This document shows, piece after piece, positions 1 through 48,652 of a DNA stretch of 48,652 nucleotides (positions are counted from its first letter, which is position 1; every line of letters starts with the position of its first letter). The translations under genes and the position numbers were made by a program. This DNA comes from a virus. The stretch spans positions 1 through 48,652 of the IMG/VR virus record IMGVR_UViG_3300036760_000333; one strand, written 5' to 3'. Under the pieces are notes generated by a model. It ran no database searches and had not been told where the DNA came from. It saw only the letters and a list, made by a program, of their open reading frames with translations.

Positions 1-2
1 CT

Positions 3-284
3 GGGGCGGCTGGGGCGGCTGAGGCGGCGGCTCGGGTGGCTGGGGCGGCTGATTCGGCGGCTGGGGCGGCTGAGGCGGCTGAGGCGGCGGCTGGGGCGGC
101 TCGGGCGGCTTGGGCGGCTGGGGCGGCTCGGGCGGCTTGGGCGGCTGGTTCGGCTTGGGCGGCTGGGGCGGCTCGGGTGGCTCGGGCAACGGCGAGAACA
201 AAGAGCCTCGAGCGCTGCGCCGCGTTGGTTCGCGGGCGCATAACGGCCAGCATGGTGTCTGCCGCGCTCAAAAAGGCCAAATGA
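3..284 (+). CDS. Alanine-rich repeat protein, copy A (5' end outside window)
   Basis: Only the C-terminal part is present because the window opens inside the repeat tract. From base 5 the DNA is identical to 769-1305, so this is the same end as copy B: runs of Ala broken by Trp, Glu, Asp, Arg and Gly, then a unique basic tail beginning ARTKSLERCAALVRG. The stop codon overlaps the start of the next small gene (ATGA). Function is unknown. The N-terminal part of intact copies resembles phage proteins labelled putative immunity protein (Imm-5-like), a comparison from memory. Because it duplicates copy B exactly, it may be a real tandem copy or an assembly extension. Confidence 0.7.
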   Translation, partial: GAAGAAEAAARVAGAADSAAGAAEAAEAAAGAARAAWAAGAARAAWAAGSAWAAGAARVARATARTKSLERCAALVRGRITASMVSAALKKAK

Positions 285-406
285 ACCGCGTCCCCGCCCT
301 TGACGATCCCGACGGCGAGTTGGTTAAGCTCACCAAGCACCTGCGCAACCTTGAGCGCAAACGGGAGGCGGATCATGGCCGCGCCGATTGTAATCCCAAA
401 ACATAA
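281..406 (+). CDS. Small unknown protein of the Ala-rich cassette, 41 aa (copy 1)
   Basis: It begins MNRVPALDDPDGELVKLTKH and is basic at the end. The start ATG overlaps the stop of the Ala-rich gene, so translation is probably coupled. An identical copy lies at 1045-1170 and a diverged, longer one at 1785-2015. The last ~12 codons lie in the 90-bp repeat shared with the window end, which suggests the C-terminus was fused on by recombination. No function recognised. Confidence 0.5.
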   Translation: MNRVPALDDPDGELVKLTKHLRNLERKREADHGRADCNPKT

Positions 407-419
407 GAAGGCAAAATGA
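375..419 (+). CDS. 14-aa micro-ORF preceding the Ala-rich gene (copy 1)
   Basis: It encodes MAAPIVIPKHKKAK and ends in ATGA, overlapping the start of the Ala-rich gene at 416. The same micro-ORF occurs at 1139 and 48570, always in this position. It may be a leader peptide or the leftover end of a longer gene. At 48570 it is the in-frame end of the broken P63C gene. Confidence 0.35.
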   Translation: MAAPIVIPKHKKAK

Positions 420-1048
420 CATTCTCATCACAACTCATCAAGCTCCATGCTTGCGCCGAGGCTTTCCTTTGGGCTAAGGGCAAGACGCTCAAGCGGGCGT
501 GGGTTACCTGCCCGCGCGGCGATTGGATGCTCTGGCTGGCGGGCAACGCCGGGATTGACCGCAAGCTCCTCGTGCTGGCCGCTTGTGATTGCGCCAGAAC
601 CGCCCTAAAGTATGTGAAACAGGGCGAAACGCGACCGCTCGCGGCGATTGAAACCGCCGAGCGCTGGGCTTCAGGTGATCCGACCGTCACGCTTGCAATG
701 GTTGAAGATGCGGCTGGGGCGGCGGCTTGGGCGGCTTGGGCGGCTTGGGCGGCTTGGGCGGCTGATACGGCGGCTGGGGCGGCTGAGGCGGCGGCTCGGG
801 TGGCTGGGGCGGCTGATTCGGCGGCTGGGGCGGCTGAGGCGGCTGAGGCGGCGGCTGGGGCGGCTCGGGCGGCTTGGGCGGCTGGGGCGGCTCGGGCGGC
901 TTGGGCGGCTGGTTCGGCTTGGGCGGCTGGGGCGGCTCGGGTGGCTCGGGCAACGGCGAGAACAAAGAGCCTCGAGCGCTGCGCCGCGTTGGTTCGCGGG
1001 CGCATAACGGCCAGCATGGTGTCTGCCGCGCTCAAAAAGGCCAAATGA
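416..1048 (+). CDS. Alanine-rich repeat protein, copy B (putative Imm-5-like)
   Basis: This is a 210-aa protein in three parts. Residues 1-95 form a conserved unique region with CPRGDWMLWLA, then CDCARTALKYV and AIETAERWASGDP. Residues ~98-175 are almost pure Ala with regularly spaced Trp, Glu, Arg, Asp and Gly from gcggct-type hexamers. The tail is basic. The head resembles phage proteins annotated as putative immunity protein (Imm-5-like), from memory; no activity is known to me. AAGAAGG lies 5 bases before the ATG. The stop overlaps the next start. Pro-rich frames on the other strand are shadows of the repeat. Confidence 0.8.
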   Translation: MTFSSQLIKLHACAEAFLWAKGKTLKRAWVTCPRGDWMLWLAGNAGIDRKLLVLAACDCARTALKYVKQGETRPLAAIETAERWASGDPTVTLAMVEDAAGAAAWAAWAAWAAWAADTAAGAAEAAARVAGAADSAAGAAEAAEAAAGAARAAWAAGAARAAWAAGSAWAAGAARVARATARTKSLERCAALVRGRITASMVSAALKKAK

Positions 1049-1170
1049 ACCGCGTCCCCGCCCTTGACGATCCCGACGGCGAGTTGGTTAAGCTCACCAA
1101 GCACCTGCGCAACCTTGAGCGCAAACGGGAGGCGGATCATGGCCGCGCCGATTGTAATCCCAAAACATAA
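1045..1170 (+). CDS. Small unknown protein of the Ala-rich cassette, 41 aa (copy 2)
   Basis: It is identical to 281-406. It starts in the ATGA overlap with copy B and ends just before copy C. Role unknown; its constant place behind each Ala-rich gene suggests the two are inherited together. Confidence 0.5.
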   Translation: MNRVPALDDPDGELVKLTKHLRNLERKREADHGRADCNPKT

Positions 1171-1183
1171 GAAGGCAAAATGA
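1139..1183 (+). CDS. 14-aa micro-ORF preceding the Ala-rich gene (copy 2)
   Basis: This is the same peptide as at 375-419 (MAAPIVIPKHKKAK). It ends in ATGA over the start of copy C. Confidence 0.35.
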   Translation: MAAPIVIPKHKKAK

Positions 1184-1788
1184 CATTCTCATCACAACTC
1201 ATCAAGCTCCATGCTTGCGCCGAGGCTTTCCTTTGGGCTAAGGGCAAGACGCTCAAGCGGGCGTGGGTTACCTGCCCGCGCGGCGATTGGATGCTCTGGC
1301 TGGCGGTCAAAACCGGGATTGACCCCAAGCTCCGCGTGCTGGCCGCTTGTGATTGCGCCAGAACCGCCCTAAAGTATGTGAAACAGGGCGAGCTCCGACC
1401 ACTCGCGGCCATTGAAACCGCCGAGCGCTGGGCTTCAGGCGATCCCGCCGTCACGCTTGCAATGGTTGAAGATGCGGCTTGGGCGGCTTGGGCGGTGGCT
1501 GATGCGGCGGCTCGGGCGGCTCGGGCGGCTTGGGCGGCGGCTGATGCGGGTGGGGCGGCTGAGGCGGCTTTTGCGGCTGGGGCGGCGGCTGATGCGGCGG
1601 CTGGGGCGGCGGCTGATGCGGCTTGGGCGGATTGGGCGGTGGCTGATGCGGCGGCTCGGGCGGCTCGGGCGGCGGCTGATGCGGCTGGGGCAACGGCGAG
1701 AACAAAGAGCCTCAAGAGCTGCGCCGAGTTGGTTCGCGGGCGCATAACGGCCAGCATGGTGTCTGCCGCGCTCAAAAAGGCCAAATGA
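1180..1788 (+). CDS. Alanine-rich repeat protein, copy C (putative Imm-5-like)
   Basis: A 202-aa paralogue of copy B. The first ~42 codons are identical, then scattered substitutions appear (VKTGIDPKLRVLAAC against GNAGIDRKLLVLAAC). The repeat tract differs in order and length and carries more Asp (AADAAA) and fewer Trp blocks. The tail is ARTKSLKSCAELVRGRITA. The constant head and tail around a variable repeat suggest the repeat contracts and expands while the ends are kept. The stop overlaps the next start. Confidence 0.8.
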   Translation: MTFSSQLIKLHACAEAFLWAKGKTLKRAWVTCPRGDWMLWLAVKTGIDPKLRVLAACDCARTALKYVKQGELRPLAAIETAERWASGDPAVTLAMVEDAAWAAWAVADAAARAARAAWAAADAGGAAEAAFAAGAAADAAAGAAADAAWADWAVADAAARAARAAADAAGATARTKSLKSCAELVRGRITASMVSAALKKAK

Positions 1789-2015
1789 ACCGCGTCCCCG
1801 CCCTTGACGATCCCGACGGCGAGTTGGTTAATCTCACCAAGCACCTGCGCAACCTTGAGCACATTCGTGGGAACAGTATTCAGCGGATTGGCCTACTCTG
1901 CGAGCCAACATACAAGAGCGTCTATCCGCCAAAGGGCATTGCCCTCATGGTGGAACAGCGGAACACATTCCCCGTCAAGACCCCCGGCTATGACCGGGGC
2001 GAAATCTTAAACTGA
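1785..2015 (+). CDS. Unknown 76-aa protein, diverged third member of the 41-aa family
   Basis: The first ~25 residues match the 41-aa cassette proteins (MNRVPALDDPDGELVNLTKH). After LRNLE the sequence switches to an unrelated 50-residue end. The switch at about base 1857 marks the right border of the cassette. A CCCCGG/CCGGGG hairpin lies in its last codons (1983-1999). Function unknown. Confidence 0.5.
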   Translation: MNRVPALDDPDGELVNLTKHLRNLEHIRGNSIQRIGLLCEPTYKSVYPPKGIALMVEQRNTFPVKTPGYDRGEILN

Positions 2016-2023
2016 GGAACACA

Positions 2024-2251
2024 GTGAACTACCACGTCAAATATACAACCGTTGGCAGGAGGGGCGGCGGCAGAACTCAGCACATCATCTTTTGCACGGG
2101 CAAAGATGAGGCCAATCGCGCACTATACAGGCTCTACCATCGGAAACTTGAGGGGGAGGCGTTGGGTGACAACGAGAGACTCTGCGGGCAAGTGTATCGT
2201 GTGCTTGTCAATCGCATTCACAAATGGCACATTGAAACGGTGGGCGCATAA
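2024..2251 (+). CDS. Unknown 75-aa basic protein
   Basis: It starts at GTG with GAGGA upstream and begins MNYHVKYTTVGRRGGG. It has conserved-looking aromatic and charged residues but no motif I recognise. It lies in the rightward operon eight bases after the previous gene. Confidence 0.55.
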   Translation: MNYHVKYTTVGRRGGGRTQHIIFCTGKDEANRALYRLYHRKLEGEALGDNERLCGQVYRVLVNRIHKWHIETVGA

Positions 2252-2337
2252 CCCGCCCTGCTGGACGGACTCCTCAAGGAGTGCGAGGCAGGAAAGTAGG
2301 AAATCTTTCGCACCGGTGAAAATAATCGGCGGGGAGC

Positions 2338-2421
2338 TTGACTTTGGACGAAGGCCGATATGAATTGACATTCAAGCACACAGAGGACGGCATTTTTGAT
2401 TTTGGCCTTCGGGCCAACTAA
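2338..2421 (+). CDS. Possible 27-aa protein, TTG start
   Basis: A short frame (MTLDEGRYELTFKHTEDG...) with GGGGAG directly before TTG. It ends in a 6-bp hairpin with a stable TTCG loop (TTGGCC-TTCG-GGCCAA, 2402-2417). Without a homologue it remains a guess. It is the only open frame of note in the 2252-2492 gap. Confidence 0.3.
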   Translation: MTLDEGRYELTFKHTEDGIFDFGLRAN

Positions 2422-2492
2422 CCGCCCTCGCCGCCGTCCCTGTGTGCAAATAGGAACTCGTCTGAGGGCGGTTTGATTTTAAGGATGGACAA

Positions 2493-2783
2493 GTGAAAAA
2501 CAAAACTCAACCGGGTCGCAACAACGACTTTGCCGTGCGCCTCGCCCGTGCGAATCAGGGGCGGCGCTTCGCCTTGAATCGCGGCAATTTTAAATTGGCA
2601 AGCGATTATCTGGCTGAACTTTATCGCCTCAGCTGTGAGGTTGAGGTGGGACTCGATAACCGCTTCGTCACAGATTCAAAAGAATCTTCCAGGGGCGGGG
2701 AGCTCACCAAGATTGCAGGAGAAGAGGTGGAGAAGTCCCACGAGCCGCTGACTGCTGAAGAGGCAAGGAGGACGGTAGGATGA
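2493..2783 (+). CDS. Unknown 96-aa protein
   Basis: GTG start with AAGGA seven bases upstream. The N-half is basic (MKNKTQPGRNNDFAVRLARA) and the C-half acidic. The stop sits inside ATGATG, overlapping the start of Ala-rich copy D, so the two are probably co-translated. No known family recognised. Confidence 0.6.
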   Translation: MKNKTQPGRNNDFAVRLARANQGRRFALNRGNFKLASDYLAELYRLSCEVEVGLDNRFVTDSKESSRGGELTKIAGEEVEKSHEPLTAEEARRTVG

Positions 2784-3193
2784 TGACTGAAATCCGTGAC
2801 AAGCTCCTCGTGCTGGCCGCCTGTGATTGCGCCAGAACCGCCCTAAAGTATGTGAAACAGGGCGAAACGCGACCGCTCGCGGCCATTGAAACCGCCGAGC
2901 GCTGGGCTTCAGGTGATCCGACCGTCACGCTTGCAATGGTTGAAAGTGCGGCTGATGCGGCGGCTGATGCGGCGGCTGGGGCGGCTTGGGCGGCTGAGGC
3001 GGCGGCTGATGCGGCTGGGGCGGCTTGGGCGGCGGCTGATGCGGCGGCTCTGGCGGCTCGGGCGGCTCGGGCGGCTGATGCGGCGGCTCGGGCGGCTGAT
3101 GCGGCGGCTCAGGCGGCTCGGGCGGCTTGGGCGGCGGCTGATGCGGCGGCTGATGCGGCTGGGGCAACGGCGAGAACAAAGAGCCTCAACTAA
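2780..3193 (+). CDS. Alanine-rich repeat protein, copy D (short head)
   Basis: 137 aa. It lacks the first ~48 residues of copies B and C; MMTEIRDK joins directly to LLVLAACDCARTALKYV. The Asp-rich Ala repeat follows, but the protein stops right after ATARTKSLN, so the basic tail is also missing. It is a doubly trimmed paralogue with a new, apparently functional start behind the 96-aa gene. A leftward promoter (3275-3303) points into its antisense strand. Confidence 0.7.
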   Translation: MMTEIRDKLLVLAACDCARTALKYVKQGETRPLAAIETAERWASGDPTVTLAMVESAADAAADAAAGAAWAAEAAADAAGAAWAAADAAALAARAARAADAAARAADAAAQAARAAWAAADAAADAAGATARTKSLN

Positions 3194-3269
3194 ACGCCCC
3201 GCTCGGTCTCCGCGAAGATAACGAACAGGGCGTAGTTGCCCGAAGGCAAAGGGGTCTGTTCGCGGAGAC
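3188..3269 (-). ncRNA. Leader/antisense RNA C with crossing helices
   Basis: The 11-bp perfect inverted repeat 3206-3216/3259-3269 (GTCTCCGCGAA) starts at the predicted start of the leftward promoter P4. Its loop strand 3228-3237 can pair with 3188-3199 beyond the hairpin: 10 bp with a 2-base bulge, including the stop codon of copy D. Stem 1 and this second helix cross, as in leaders A and B. The RNA would be antisense to the Ala-rich gene. The same repeats exist in rightward transcripts, so a 3'-end structure for that operon is an alternative. Confidence 0.45.
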
Positions 3270-3274
3270 AGTAG

Positions 3275-3303
3275 AATATAGGATATTTTCAAGGGAATGT
3301 CAA
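3275..3303 (-). promoter_or_regulatory. Promoter P4, leftward
   Basis: On the minus strand CTTGACA, 17 bases, TATATT. An ACAAAATC block sits 12 bases upstream of the -35, the same place as CCAAAATG in P1 and P2. The start falls at ~3268, the first base of the hairpin. It lies just behind the 3' end of the leftward operon and points at the Ala-rich array. Confidence 0.6.
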
Positions 3304-15383: not shown

Positions 15384-15680
15384 TTAGGCACTTGGGCCCT
15401 CCGCAACCCGCCAAATCCGTACGCTGACCCTGCCGTCATCGAGGCGCGTAATGAGGCGCGTGGCAATCTTGATGCCCATTTTATCGGCCTGCGTTCGATA
15501 CGAAATCGCCGCCGCATACTGATCACTCTTCCCGCTTCCACGATGCAGGGTATGGGTTGCGATGAGAACCGAGTCTCCCGGCTGCATTCGGGAAAGGGCG
15601 TCTCGGATTTCCGTTGTTGCGAGACCCGTCTTGCCACTACGCGTTGGTAGGGGGATGCCGTGTTCGATTTCGATGGTCAT
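15384..15680 (-). CDS. Conserved phage small protein, 98 aa
   Basis: It begins MTIEIEHGIPLPTRSGKTGL and contains AISYRTQADKMGIKIATRLI and VRIWRVAEG. This start/end pattern (short beta lead, MQPGDSVL, then W-R at the end) is common in small phage proteins of unknown function. It is the first gene behind leader B. Confidence 0.6.
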   Translation of the reverse strand: MTIEIEHGIPLPTRSGKTGLATTEIRDALSRMQPGDSVLIATHTLHRGSGKSDQYAAAISYRTQADKMGIKIATRLITRLDDGRVSVRIWRVAEGPSA

Positions 15681-15783: not shown

Positions 15784-15892
15784 AGGCCCCGCGATCTGGT
15801 CGTCTAAACACTCGGCGGAGGGCTTCGGCGGTCAGGGCGGGGCCTTCAAAAACGAAAATGCCGCCGATTATGTTGCCCTTGCGCCGAGTGCA
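15784..15892 (-). ncRNA. Leader RNA B with crossing helices and U-run
   Basis: The leftward transcript from P5 starts ~15892. Stem 1 pairs 15890-15882 with 15817-15809 and continues with 5- and 7-bp segments, 21 bp in all, around a 29-base loop. The loop strand 15845-15837 (AGGCCCCGC) is a perfect complement of 15792-15784 (GCGGGGCCT), which is followed by CTTTTTG. The second helix plus U-run looks like an intrinsic terminator that stem 1 would prevent or compete with. Confidence 0.55.
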
Positions 15893-15898
15893 AGAGAC

Positions 15899-15927
15899 AA
15901 TCTAATACATGGCGGGCGGGTTGTCAA
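15899..15927 (-). promoter_or_regulatory. Promoter P5 of the leftward DNA-metabolism operon
   Basis: Minus strand CTTGACA, 17 bases, TAGATT. The first base of the RNA falls next to stem 1 of leader B. The upstream block resembles the CAAAAT element only weakly. A GCCTAA/TTAGGC palindrome (15935-15948) lies upstream of the -35 and could bind a regulator. 15949-16061 shows nothing else. Confidence 0.6.
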
Positions 15928-45675: not shown

Positions 45676-45724
45676 GAAAAGACCCGGATCCGATTATTCT
45701 TGGCAGAACGCGGATCCGGGTCTT
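45676..45724 (-). terminator. Intrinsic terminator of small RNA 2
   Basis: AAGACCCGGATCCG/CGGATCCGGGTCTT, a 14-bp perfect stem (45679-45692/45711-45724) with an 18-base loop; the minus strand ends in TTTT followed by CGC. Confidence 0.75.
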
Positions 45725-45740
45725 GAACCGGGAAACAAGT

Positions 45741-45807
45741 GGGGGTGCTTGGAGGAGCTAAGGCCTCATCAACCGACGGCTCAGGGGTTCAATTCCCCTC
45801 ACCTCCA
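45741..45807 (+). tRNA. tRNA-like sequence, not a normal cloverleaf
   Basis: GGGGGTG pairs with CACCTCC (one G-T), a full 7-bp acceptor, and AGGGG-TTCAATT-CCCCT is a perfect T-arm followed by discriminator A. The 35 bases between do not form a D-arm plus anticodon arm; the best fold is one hairpin (GAGG/CCTC). No CCA is encoded. The 3' end resembles tmRNA/tRNA ends. It may be a degenerate tRNA, a tRNA mimic or a captured attachment site; no integrase is present. Confidence 0.35.
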
Positions 45808-45843
45808 CTGCGTTTTCCATTAACCCATGAGGAGAATCGAGGC

Positions 45844-46163: not shown

Positions 46164-46192
46164 TTGACATTCACTTGACAGGATATTATCTT
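46164..46192 (+). promoter_or_regulatory. Promoter P7 of the rightward operon
   Basis: CTTGACA, 17 bases, TATCTT. A second CTTGACA lies 11 bases further on. The start falls at 46199, the first base of leader A. It serves the genes from 46314 onward. Confidence 0.65.
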
Positions 46193-46198
46193 GATGGG

Positions 46199-46293
46199 TG
46201 AAGTCACAAACAGCCGGGCGTTTTCTATTATCGCCCCGTTCCCTCAGGACACACGCACCGGCTTGTGACTTCAACCTGAAGGGGACGGGGCGA
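46199..46293 (+). ncRNA. Leader RNA A: two long crossing helices
   Basis: Stem 1: 46199-46209/46263-46273 (11 bp perfect), then 46213-46217/46258-46262 and 46218-46221/46253-46256, 20 bp total, around a 31-base loop. Stem 2: 46231-46248 in that loop pairs with 46275-46293, 18 bp with one bulged A and one G-U. The helices cross; the connecting loops look too short for both to form fully, so they are probably alternatives. The first gene's GGAG lies ten bases after stem 2. Confidence 0.7.
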
Positions 46294-46313
46294 ATTTATT
46301 CTGGAGAGAGACA

Positions 46314-46511
46314 ATGACAAGATTCGATATAATCGGCGGCGCAGTTGAGCCGCTTGAGACAATCATCATTGAGGTTGACCTGCGCCTCGTGGATTCGCCC
46401 TCACCGATTGCCTTCACCGCCGGGCAATTCGACCGCAAGCTTGGGAGGGCAATGCCAACCGATTACGAATTATCGGCTGAGTATGTCCGGGGATACAACT
46501 CCGCCTCATAA
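46314..46511 (+). CDS. Unknown 65-aa early protein
   Basis: GGAGAGAGACA before the ATG, the same ribosome site as the next gene. MTRFDIIGGAVEPLETIIIE, beta-rich then acidic. First gene behind leader A. Similarity to the 87-aa neighbour is limited to the end (NSAS/SSSAS). Confidence 0.6.
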   Translation: MTRFDIIGGAVEPLETIIIEVDLRLVDSPSPIAFTAGQFDRKLGRAMPTDYELSAEYVRGYNSAS

Positions 46512-48106: not shown

Positions 48107-48614
48107 ATGACAACTGGAAAGCGTTACGCTCTGTGCGAGGACGAAATTACCATTGGCGGCGTTCAAATTCCATGCGCTGTACTGGACGACGAGACCCGTG
48201 TACTCACCAGCAAAGGCTATCTACAAGCCTTAAACCGCCCATGGAAAGGAACTTACGCTTACGAAAAGCTCCCATCGTTCGTAAGTGCCCCAAACCTTGA
48301 GCCGTTTATTGACAGCGACTTAAGGCGTGTACTTATCCCCGTCGAATACGAGAACCTGAGGGGGCAAAAGGTCAGCGGCTTTCGTGCCGATTCACTCCCT
48401 CGCGTTGTGGCAGTACCATCCGTTCAATCCGCGCCGCCCTGCCCTCGTTGGCCGCCTCACGAACGACCTCGTCTATATGCGCCTTGCACCGGGCGTATTA
48501 GAGGAGCTAAAGCAGCGCGAGCCAAGAATCCCAGCAACAGGAAGGCGCAAGCACAAGCTATTGCGGATCATGGCCGCGCCGATTGTAATCCCAAAACATA
48601 AGAAGGCAAAATGA
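48107..48614 (+). pseudogene. P63C-domain phage gene, internally deleted and frameshifted
   Basis: Frame 1 (48107 to ~48380) reads ALCEDEITIGGVQIPCAVLD, TRVLTSKGYLQALNR and ADSLPRV, the N-part of P63C-domain phage proteins. Frame 2 (from ~48384) reads RPALVGRLTNDLVYMRLAPG and VLEELKQ...GRRKHK, the family's C-terminal domain. About 120 residues between, and the last ~40, are missing. Frame 2 runs straight into the 14-aa cassette micro-ORF. Either a decayed gene or a junction artefact. Confidence 0.7.
48570..48614 (+). CDS. 14-aa micro-ORF (copy 3)
   Basis: MAAPIVIPKHKKAK in frame with the P63C C-terminal fragment and overlapping the next start. Third occurrence of the same peptide. Confidence 0.35.
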   Translation: MAAPIVIPKHKKAK

Positions 48615-48652
48615 CATTCTCATCACAACTCATCAAGCTCCATGCTTGCGCC
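48611..48652 (+). CDS. Alanine-rich repeat protein, 5' end (cut by window end)
   Basis: MTFSSQLIKLHACA, identical to the start of copies B and C. It probably continues at position 458 or 1222, or into copy A. Confidence 0.7.
   Translation, partial: MTFSSQLIKLHACA

Follow-up and report, generated by a model that had tools for sequence, protein, structure and literature searches.

Crossing helices at the predicted start of transcription in three leaders of one tailed phage suggest an undescribed on/off control

In known leader switches, two helices compete for the same bases, as the structures of an attenuator compete for shared strands, and known phage RNA antiterminators carry conserved sequence. 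Attenuators fold into mutually exclusive structures (PMC7430163). The putL RNA of phage HK022, ~70 nt long and located just downstream of an early promoter, consists of two consecutive stem-loops, with its first pair near +1 (PMC9378689). Stem-loops at the very 5' end stabilise mRNA, according to work cited in PMC3997798.

The window analysed here is a whole IMG/VR virus record of 48,652 bases from an unclassified tailed phage, which encodes a P22-like portal and a DnaB-type helicase. Its genes run mostly leftward, with one short rightward operon starting at 46314. At three promoters, those of leader A (ahead of the rightward operon) and of the leftward leaders B (15891) and C (3269), the same layout is found (Table 1): a helix (A) at the predicted +1, a second helix (B) that crosses A, and a U-rich tail behind B. 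The distance from the -10 box to the start of helix A is 6 nt in leader A, 7 nt in leader B and 5 nt in leader C. A strong hairpin separates leader B from its downstream gene, and no obvious sense gene or long operon lies downstream of leader C. No close relative of the phage was found in any collection searched: the product of the gene at 46314 (gp46314), the portal, the terminase and the product of the leader B gene had no matches among viral contigs, portal and terminase had none among genome contigs, the leader A region had none among phage records at the DNA level, and the portal was absent from 100 of the 100 phage records fetched. The comparative evidence consists of the three leaders of this one genome.

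Table 1. Coordinates of the three leaders and of the genes behind leaders A and B in the window
Feature	Coordinates	Strand	Remarks
Leader A promoter	46164..46192	+	TTGACA-17 nt-TATCTT, 10/12 sigma-70-type consensus
Leader A helix A 5' arm	46199..46217	+	46199-46209 and 46213-46217; optional 46196-46197
Leader A helix B 5' arm	46231..46248	+	within loop of helix A
Leader A helix A 3' arm	46258..46273	+	optional extension to 46276
Leader A helix B 3' arm	46275..46293	+	immediately behind helix A
Leader A U-rich tail AATTTATT	46294..46301	+	after helix B
First gene of rightward operon	46303..46511	+	RBS GGAGAG 46303-46308, ATG 46314, 65 aa, no known family
Leader B promoter	15899..15927	-	TTGACA-17 nt-TAGATT, 10/12
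Leader B helix A 5' arm	15882..15891	-	at predicted +1; helix 10 bp
Leader B helix B 5' arm	15837..15845	-	within loop of helix A; helix 9 bp
Leader B helix A 3' arm	15808..15817	-	
Leader B helix B 3' arm	15784..15792	-	then CTTTTTGA (15783-15776)
Gene after leader B	15384..15680	-	98 aa, no Pfam family
Leader C promoter	3275..3303	-	TTGACA-17 nt-TATATT, 11/12
Leader C helix A 5' arm	3259..3269	-	at predicted +1; helix 11 bp
Leader C helix B 5' arm	3222..3233	-	within loop of helix A; helix 12 bp
Leader C helix A 3' arm	3206..3216	-	
Leader C helix B 3' arm	3194..3205	-	gap 0 after helix A; then TTAGTTGA

Leader A was singled out in a first-pass annotation, in which the transcript of the rightward operon was proposed to start exactly at a 20-bp stem. 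Its promoter places +1 at about 46196-46199, so the start is right within the error of promoter prediction, and the stem comes to 16-18 pairs instead of 20. Helix A is built from an 11-bp block (46199-46209/46263-46273) and, past an ACA bulge, a 5-bp block (46213-46217/46258-46262), with two further pairs possible past a G.A mismatch (46196-97/46275-76). The complementarity noted between 18 bases of the loop and 46275-46293, right behind the stem, was recovered in full as 18 pairs: 14 bp that include one G.U (46231-46244/46280-46293) and 4 bp next to one bulged A (46245-46248/46275-46278). The two helices overlap by at most 2 nt (46275-76). In the interval 46190-46320, the best crossing pair reaches -52.2 kcal/mol, a value matched by 0 of 1000 dinucleotide shuffles (shuffle mean -18.8, best -38.5), and the fold z-score is -3.2. 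The judgement that such helices can hardly coexist is right for those of full length, which are predicted to be mutually exclusive; it does not extend to the cores of 11 and 14 bp, connected by loops of 21, 18 and 6 nt, which are not sterically excluded and could coexist, as judged from loop length and not from pseudoknot energy. The leader ends 20 nt before the ATG of the downstream gene. Translation control of gp46314, also proposed, is unlikely because the RBS lies outside both helices, so that its occlusion is excluded by the coordinates; in leaders B and C, moreover, no gene begins close to helix B. No credible leader peptide ORF with an RBS was found ahead of helix B in leaders A, B or C; an ORF at 46194-46268 was rejected in this role because its start lies before the predicted +1.

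Several other elements lie upstream of leader A and around the ends of the window. A tRNA-like fold at 45739-45810 (+) combines a 7-bp acceptor stem with a perfect T-arm (AGGGGTTCAATTCCCCT); ARAGORN makes no call, and the fold is perhaps a tRNA remnant or an attachment site. On the minus strand (45643-45485), a TTGACA-17-TATCTT promoter is followed ~130 nt on by a compact hairpin (GAGGGGCTGTC/GACAGCCCCTC) and then GTGGTTTTTT, possibly a short non-coding RNA or an attenuated leader. Between two divergent promoters, a perfect 14-bp inverted repeat (AAGACCCGGATCCG/CGGATCCGGGTCTT, 45679-45724) is a possible operator or hairpin. Towards the right end, a gene at 48107-48601 (+) encodes a P63C-domain-like protein (phrog_2384) with relatives in Gordonia phages; the family match ends after residue 102, and the gene perhaps contains a frameshift near 48400. 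The last 90 bases of the window (48563-48652) are identical to 368-457 and 1132-1221; a circular or permuted genome, closing on itself, is therefore probable, and the rightward operon probably runs on into 1-3193. Positions 1-1860 hold two copies of one unit with a spacing of 764 bp and 92.5% identity. Tandem gene copies (MTFSSQLIKLHACAEAFLWAKGK...) occupy 416-3193 (+), with a weak Imm5_like match and long Ala/Trp/Gly-rich low-complexity tails, and the family is also present in at least 79 other IMG/VR contigs.

The first-pass annotation knew no described element of this shape, and the searches agree: none of 4227 Rfam families scored above its gathering threshold anywhere in the window, relaxed scans of leaders A-C gave only chance-level or microRNA-like hairpin matches, and no description of the shape was found among open-licence papers. 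The trp, pyr and T-box attenuators resemble the leaders in being promoter-proximal, with two helices, predicted to compete in the leaders, of which the second is GC-rich and followed by U-rich sequence; they stand upstream of an operon, a likeness that holds for leaders A and B. In contrast to these attenuators, the helices of leaders A-C share almost no bases and would exclude each other by crossing, there is no leader peptide or ligand motif, the putative terminator is weak, and helix A sits at +1. HK022 putL and putR are likewise structured RNAs of 70-100 nt transcribed from a phage operon promoter; the likeness to put drawn earlier is positional only, since put consists of successive stem-loops with conserved bases, whereas the leaders have crossing helices of differing sequence. 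Stabilising stem-loops of the ompA, papA and aprE type also pair the first transcribed bases; in leaders A-C, this pairing is crossed by another long helix, and the structure ends in a U-rich tail. The antisense-controlled attenuators of pT181 and pIP501 have alternative helices ahead of a gene, as has leader A, which a weak promoter-like site on the opposite strand (TTGTCA-16-TAAATT, 46320-46293, 9/12) overlaps; unlike them, leaders A-C have no pre-emptor on a shared strand, and opposite leaders B and C no antisense promoter-like site reached 9/12. Pseudoknot riboswitches such as SAM-II are small crossing-helix RNAs near a 5' end as well; the leaders differ from them in far longer helices, no conserved core and no Rfam match.

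The recurrence of the layout was measured with a strict definition: helix A at -18.5 kcal/mol or lower, helix B at -21 kcal/mol or lower, at most 20 nt between the helices, and a structure start 4-9 nt downstream of a promoter, which occurs by chance at 0.043% of the promoter positions of the window. With ten promoter-like sites that score at least 10/12, this rate predicts 0.0043 coincidences; the layout is present at three of the ten. It is present at none of 34 weaker sites scoring 9/12 and at 1 of 680 scoring 7-8/12, and the strong promoters of the window have no strict structure other than leaders A, B and C within 100 nt. Each of the three beats all 1000 of 1000 dinucleotide shuffles. 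The thresholds were picked after the leaders had been seen, and relaxing them keeps the count at three; earlier genome-wide scans for crossing helices were too lax, and the promoter-anchored test alone is informative. The layout recurs, then, at starts given by predicted promoters. It does so with no clear sequence homology among the transcribed parts (p 0.05-0.5): an alignment of leaders A and C recovers mainly the promoter, in which they have CTTGACATTCMCTTGAMA in common. The same crossing shape at three promoters, made from a different sequence each time, suggests an undescribed on/off control of transcription just after its start.

A survey of other phage DNA yielded a single candidate. 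The first set (2.52 Mb, 328 strong promoters) gave one match, in contig L156, with 0.14 expected; the second (2.62 Mb, 977 promoters) gave the same L156 leader again and nothing else. Combined, ~5.1 Mb and ~1,300 strong promoter-like sites contain one candidate, at L156 position 2355, with 0.32 expected. This leader (TTGACA-17-CACAAT, helix A at an offset of 5, a crossing 11-bp helix B after a gap of 1, no U-tail) fits the layout well and may be a chance coincidence. A 77% match to the L156 leader in another contig (G004) was rejected, as it spans only part of that leader. The motif CTTGACATTCMCTTGAMA is widespread in other phages, there without the leader shape: none of 121 sites with the promoter motif of leaders A and C shows it, and the distant terminase relatives MW202524 and ON337195 have no crossing-shape leader. 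One candidate against 0.32 expected makes the layout, at the sensitivity of this survey, a trait of this phage and not a general one. Some viral contigs (L238, L226, L205 and others) also contain a motif, CTTGACATTCNCTTGANA, in up to 6 copies within ~8 kb, frequently with a second -35/-10 pair a short way downstream; we read it as an extended early-promoter motif common to these phage contigs. In L168 (IMGVR_UViG_3300037518_000374, from 35868), a long near-perfect hairpin (GATGTTAAGATAGGTAAAAAGTGTCCC...GGGGGACATTTCTTACCTATCTTAACAT) directly follows a promoter-like site, and a gene in L156 contains a related repeat (2700-2830).

The order of folding was predicted for the growing RNA, in which helix A persists until the last bases of the 3' arm of B are exposed. 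At full length, leaders A and C are predicted to favour helix B (by ~8 kcal/mol in leader A) and leader B to retain helix A; because helix A of leader B is the more stable throughout, its helix B may form rarely. U-rich tails follow 9 of 106 strong helices of the window, and three of these nine are the helices B of leaders A-C, a coincidence of about 4e-4 if random, which favours a terminator-like B. The tail of leader A begins with A and is not a U run, the loops of the core helices B measure 35, 44 and 16 nt, and these helices score negative as classical terminators (d -20 to -31).

Our preferred reading, held tentatively, is that leaders A-C are promoter-proximal conditional terminators, or attenuators, that act by shape and not by conserved sequence. 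RNA polymerase would take the first base of helix A as its start, and the helix would fold once its 3' arm exits the polymerase; the 5' arm of B would then be held in the loop of A, and its 3' arm would emerge directly behind A, with the U-rich tract next. With helix A standing, B could not wind fully, given the crossing and the short connecting loop, so that no terminator would form and transcription would proceed. With helix A opened or slow to form, B would form and transcription would stop after ~80-115 nt, some signal tipping the balance. To take leader A for a switch, as was done at first pass, is a fair reading, with the shape present at +1 of two more unrelated leaders; the mechanism itself, with B as the terminator, A as its antagonist and a signal deciding between the two, is one we infer. 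With hardly any bases common to A and B, any exclusion would have to be topological, unlike in known attenuators. The genes downstream of leaders A and B fit this attenuator reading; the long loops of B, the negative terminator scores and the fact that leader C precedes no obvious sense gene count against it. More doubtful is the specific claim of a sequence-independent RNA switch, used at several promoters of one phage, in which a stem at the first base blocks the next helix solely by crossing.

The exact placing of helix A is better explained by a 5'-terminal stabiliser than by a conditional terminator. Paired first bases and a pseudoknot cap, with partial helices A and B coexisting, would then counter 5'-end-dependent decay. 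Helix A lies exactly at the predicted +1 in all three leaders, with no or few unpaired bases before it relative to that start, as 5'-end protection needs and an attenuator does not; the helix cores are compatible by loop length, and the sequence would be free to vary. Such a stabiliser is nevertheless unlikely: it leaves unexplained the U-rich tail behind B in all three and the need for a second long helix, and weaker stems at the 5' end, at -11 kcal/mol or lower, arise by chance at ~1/3 of positions. That leader C has no obvious sense gene downstream, in turn, is better explained if the three are small-RNA genes, each with a promoter, a compact pseudoknotted RNA with paired ends and a terminator-like tail, leader A preceding its gene fortuitously. 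The 5' and 3' ends both lie in helices followed by U-rich tails, and the predicted lengths of ~80-115 nt are discrete. However, leader A stops just short of an ATG with an RBS, leader B also precedes a gene, the tails are weak and no seed sequence is common to the three, and we rate small-RNA genes as improbable.

Still less probable is a put-like action, in which the nascent RNA would bind RNA polymerase and let it ignore later terminators. Place and size are those of HK022 putL, but the two consecutive stem-loops of put, with their conserved bases, stand against crossing helices with no bases conserved across leaders A-C, and no long operon follows leader C. We give the least weight of all to inverted repeats that arose by chance near promoters, or to a site there that acts at the level of DNA, such as an operator, an origin or a recombination site. 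Thresholds set after the fact and the many crossing helices of GC-rich DNA, with shuffled genomes sometimes reaching similar totals somewhere, speak for this explanation; three structures against 0.004 expected at +1 of the ten top-scoring promoters, each on the strand that is transcribed, and a count that stays at three under relaxed thresholds, speak against it.

If conditional termination by crossing helices is the correct reading, these leaders would form a family defined by shape alone and by exclusion through crossing, invisible to sequence and covariance searches. Rfam finds nothing here, and such shape-only leaders could go unnoticed elsewhere. Leaders A-C would then lend themselves to simple tests of how nascent RNA topology directs termination.
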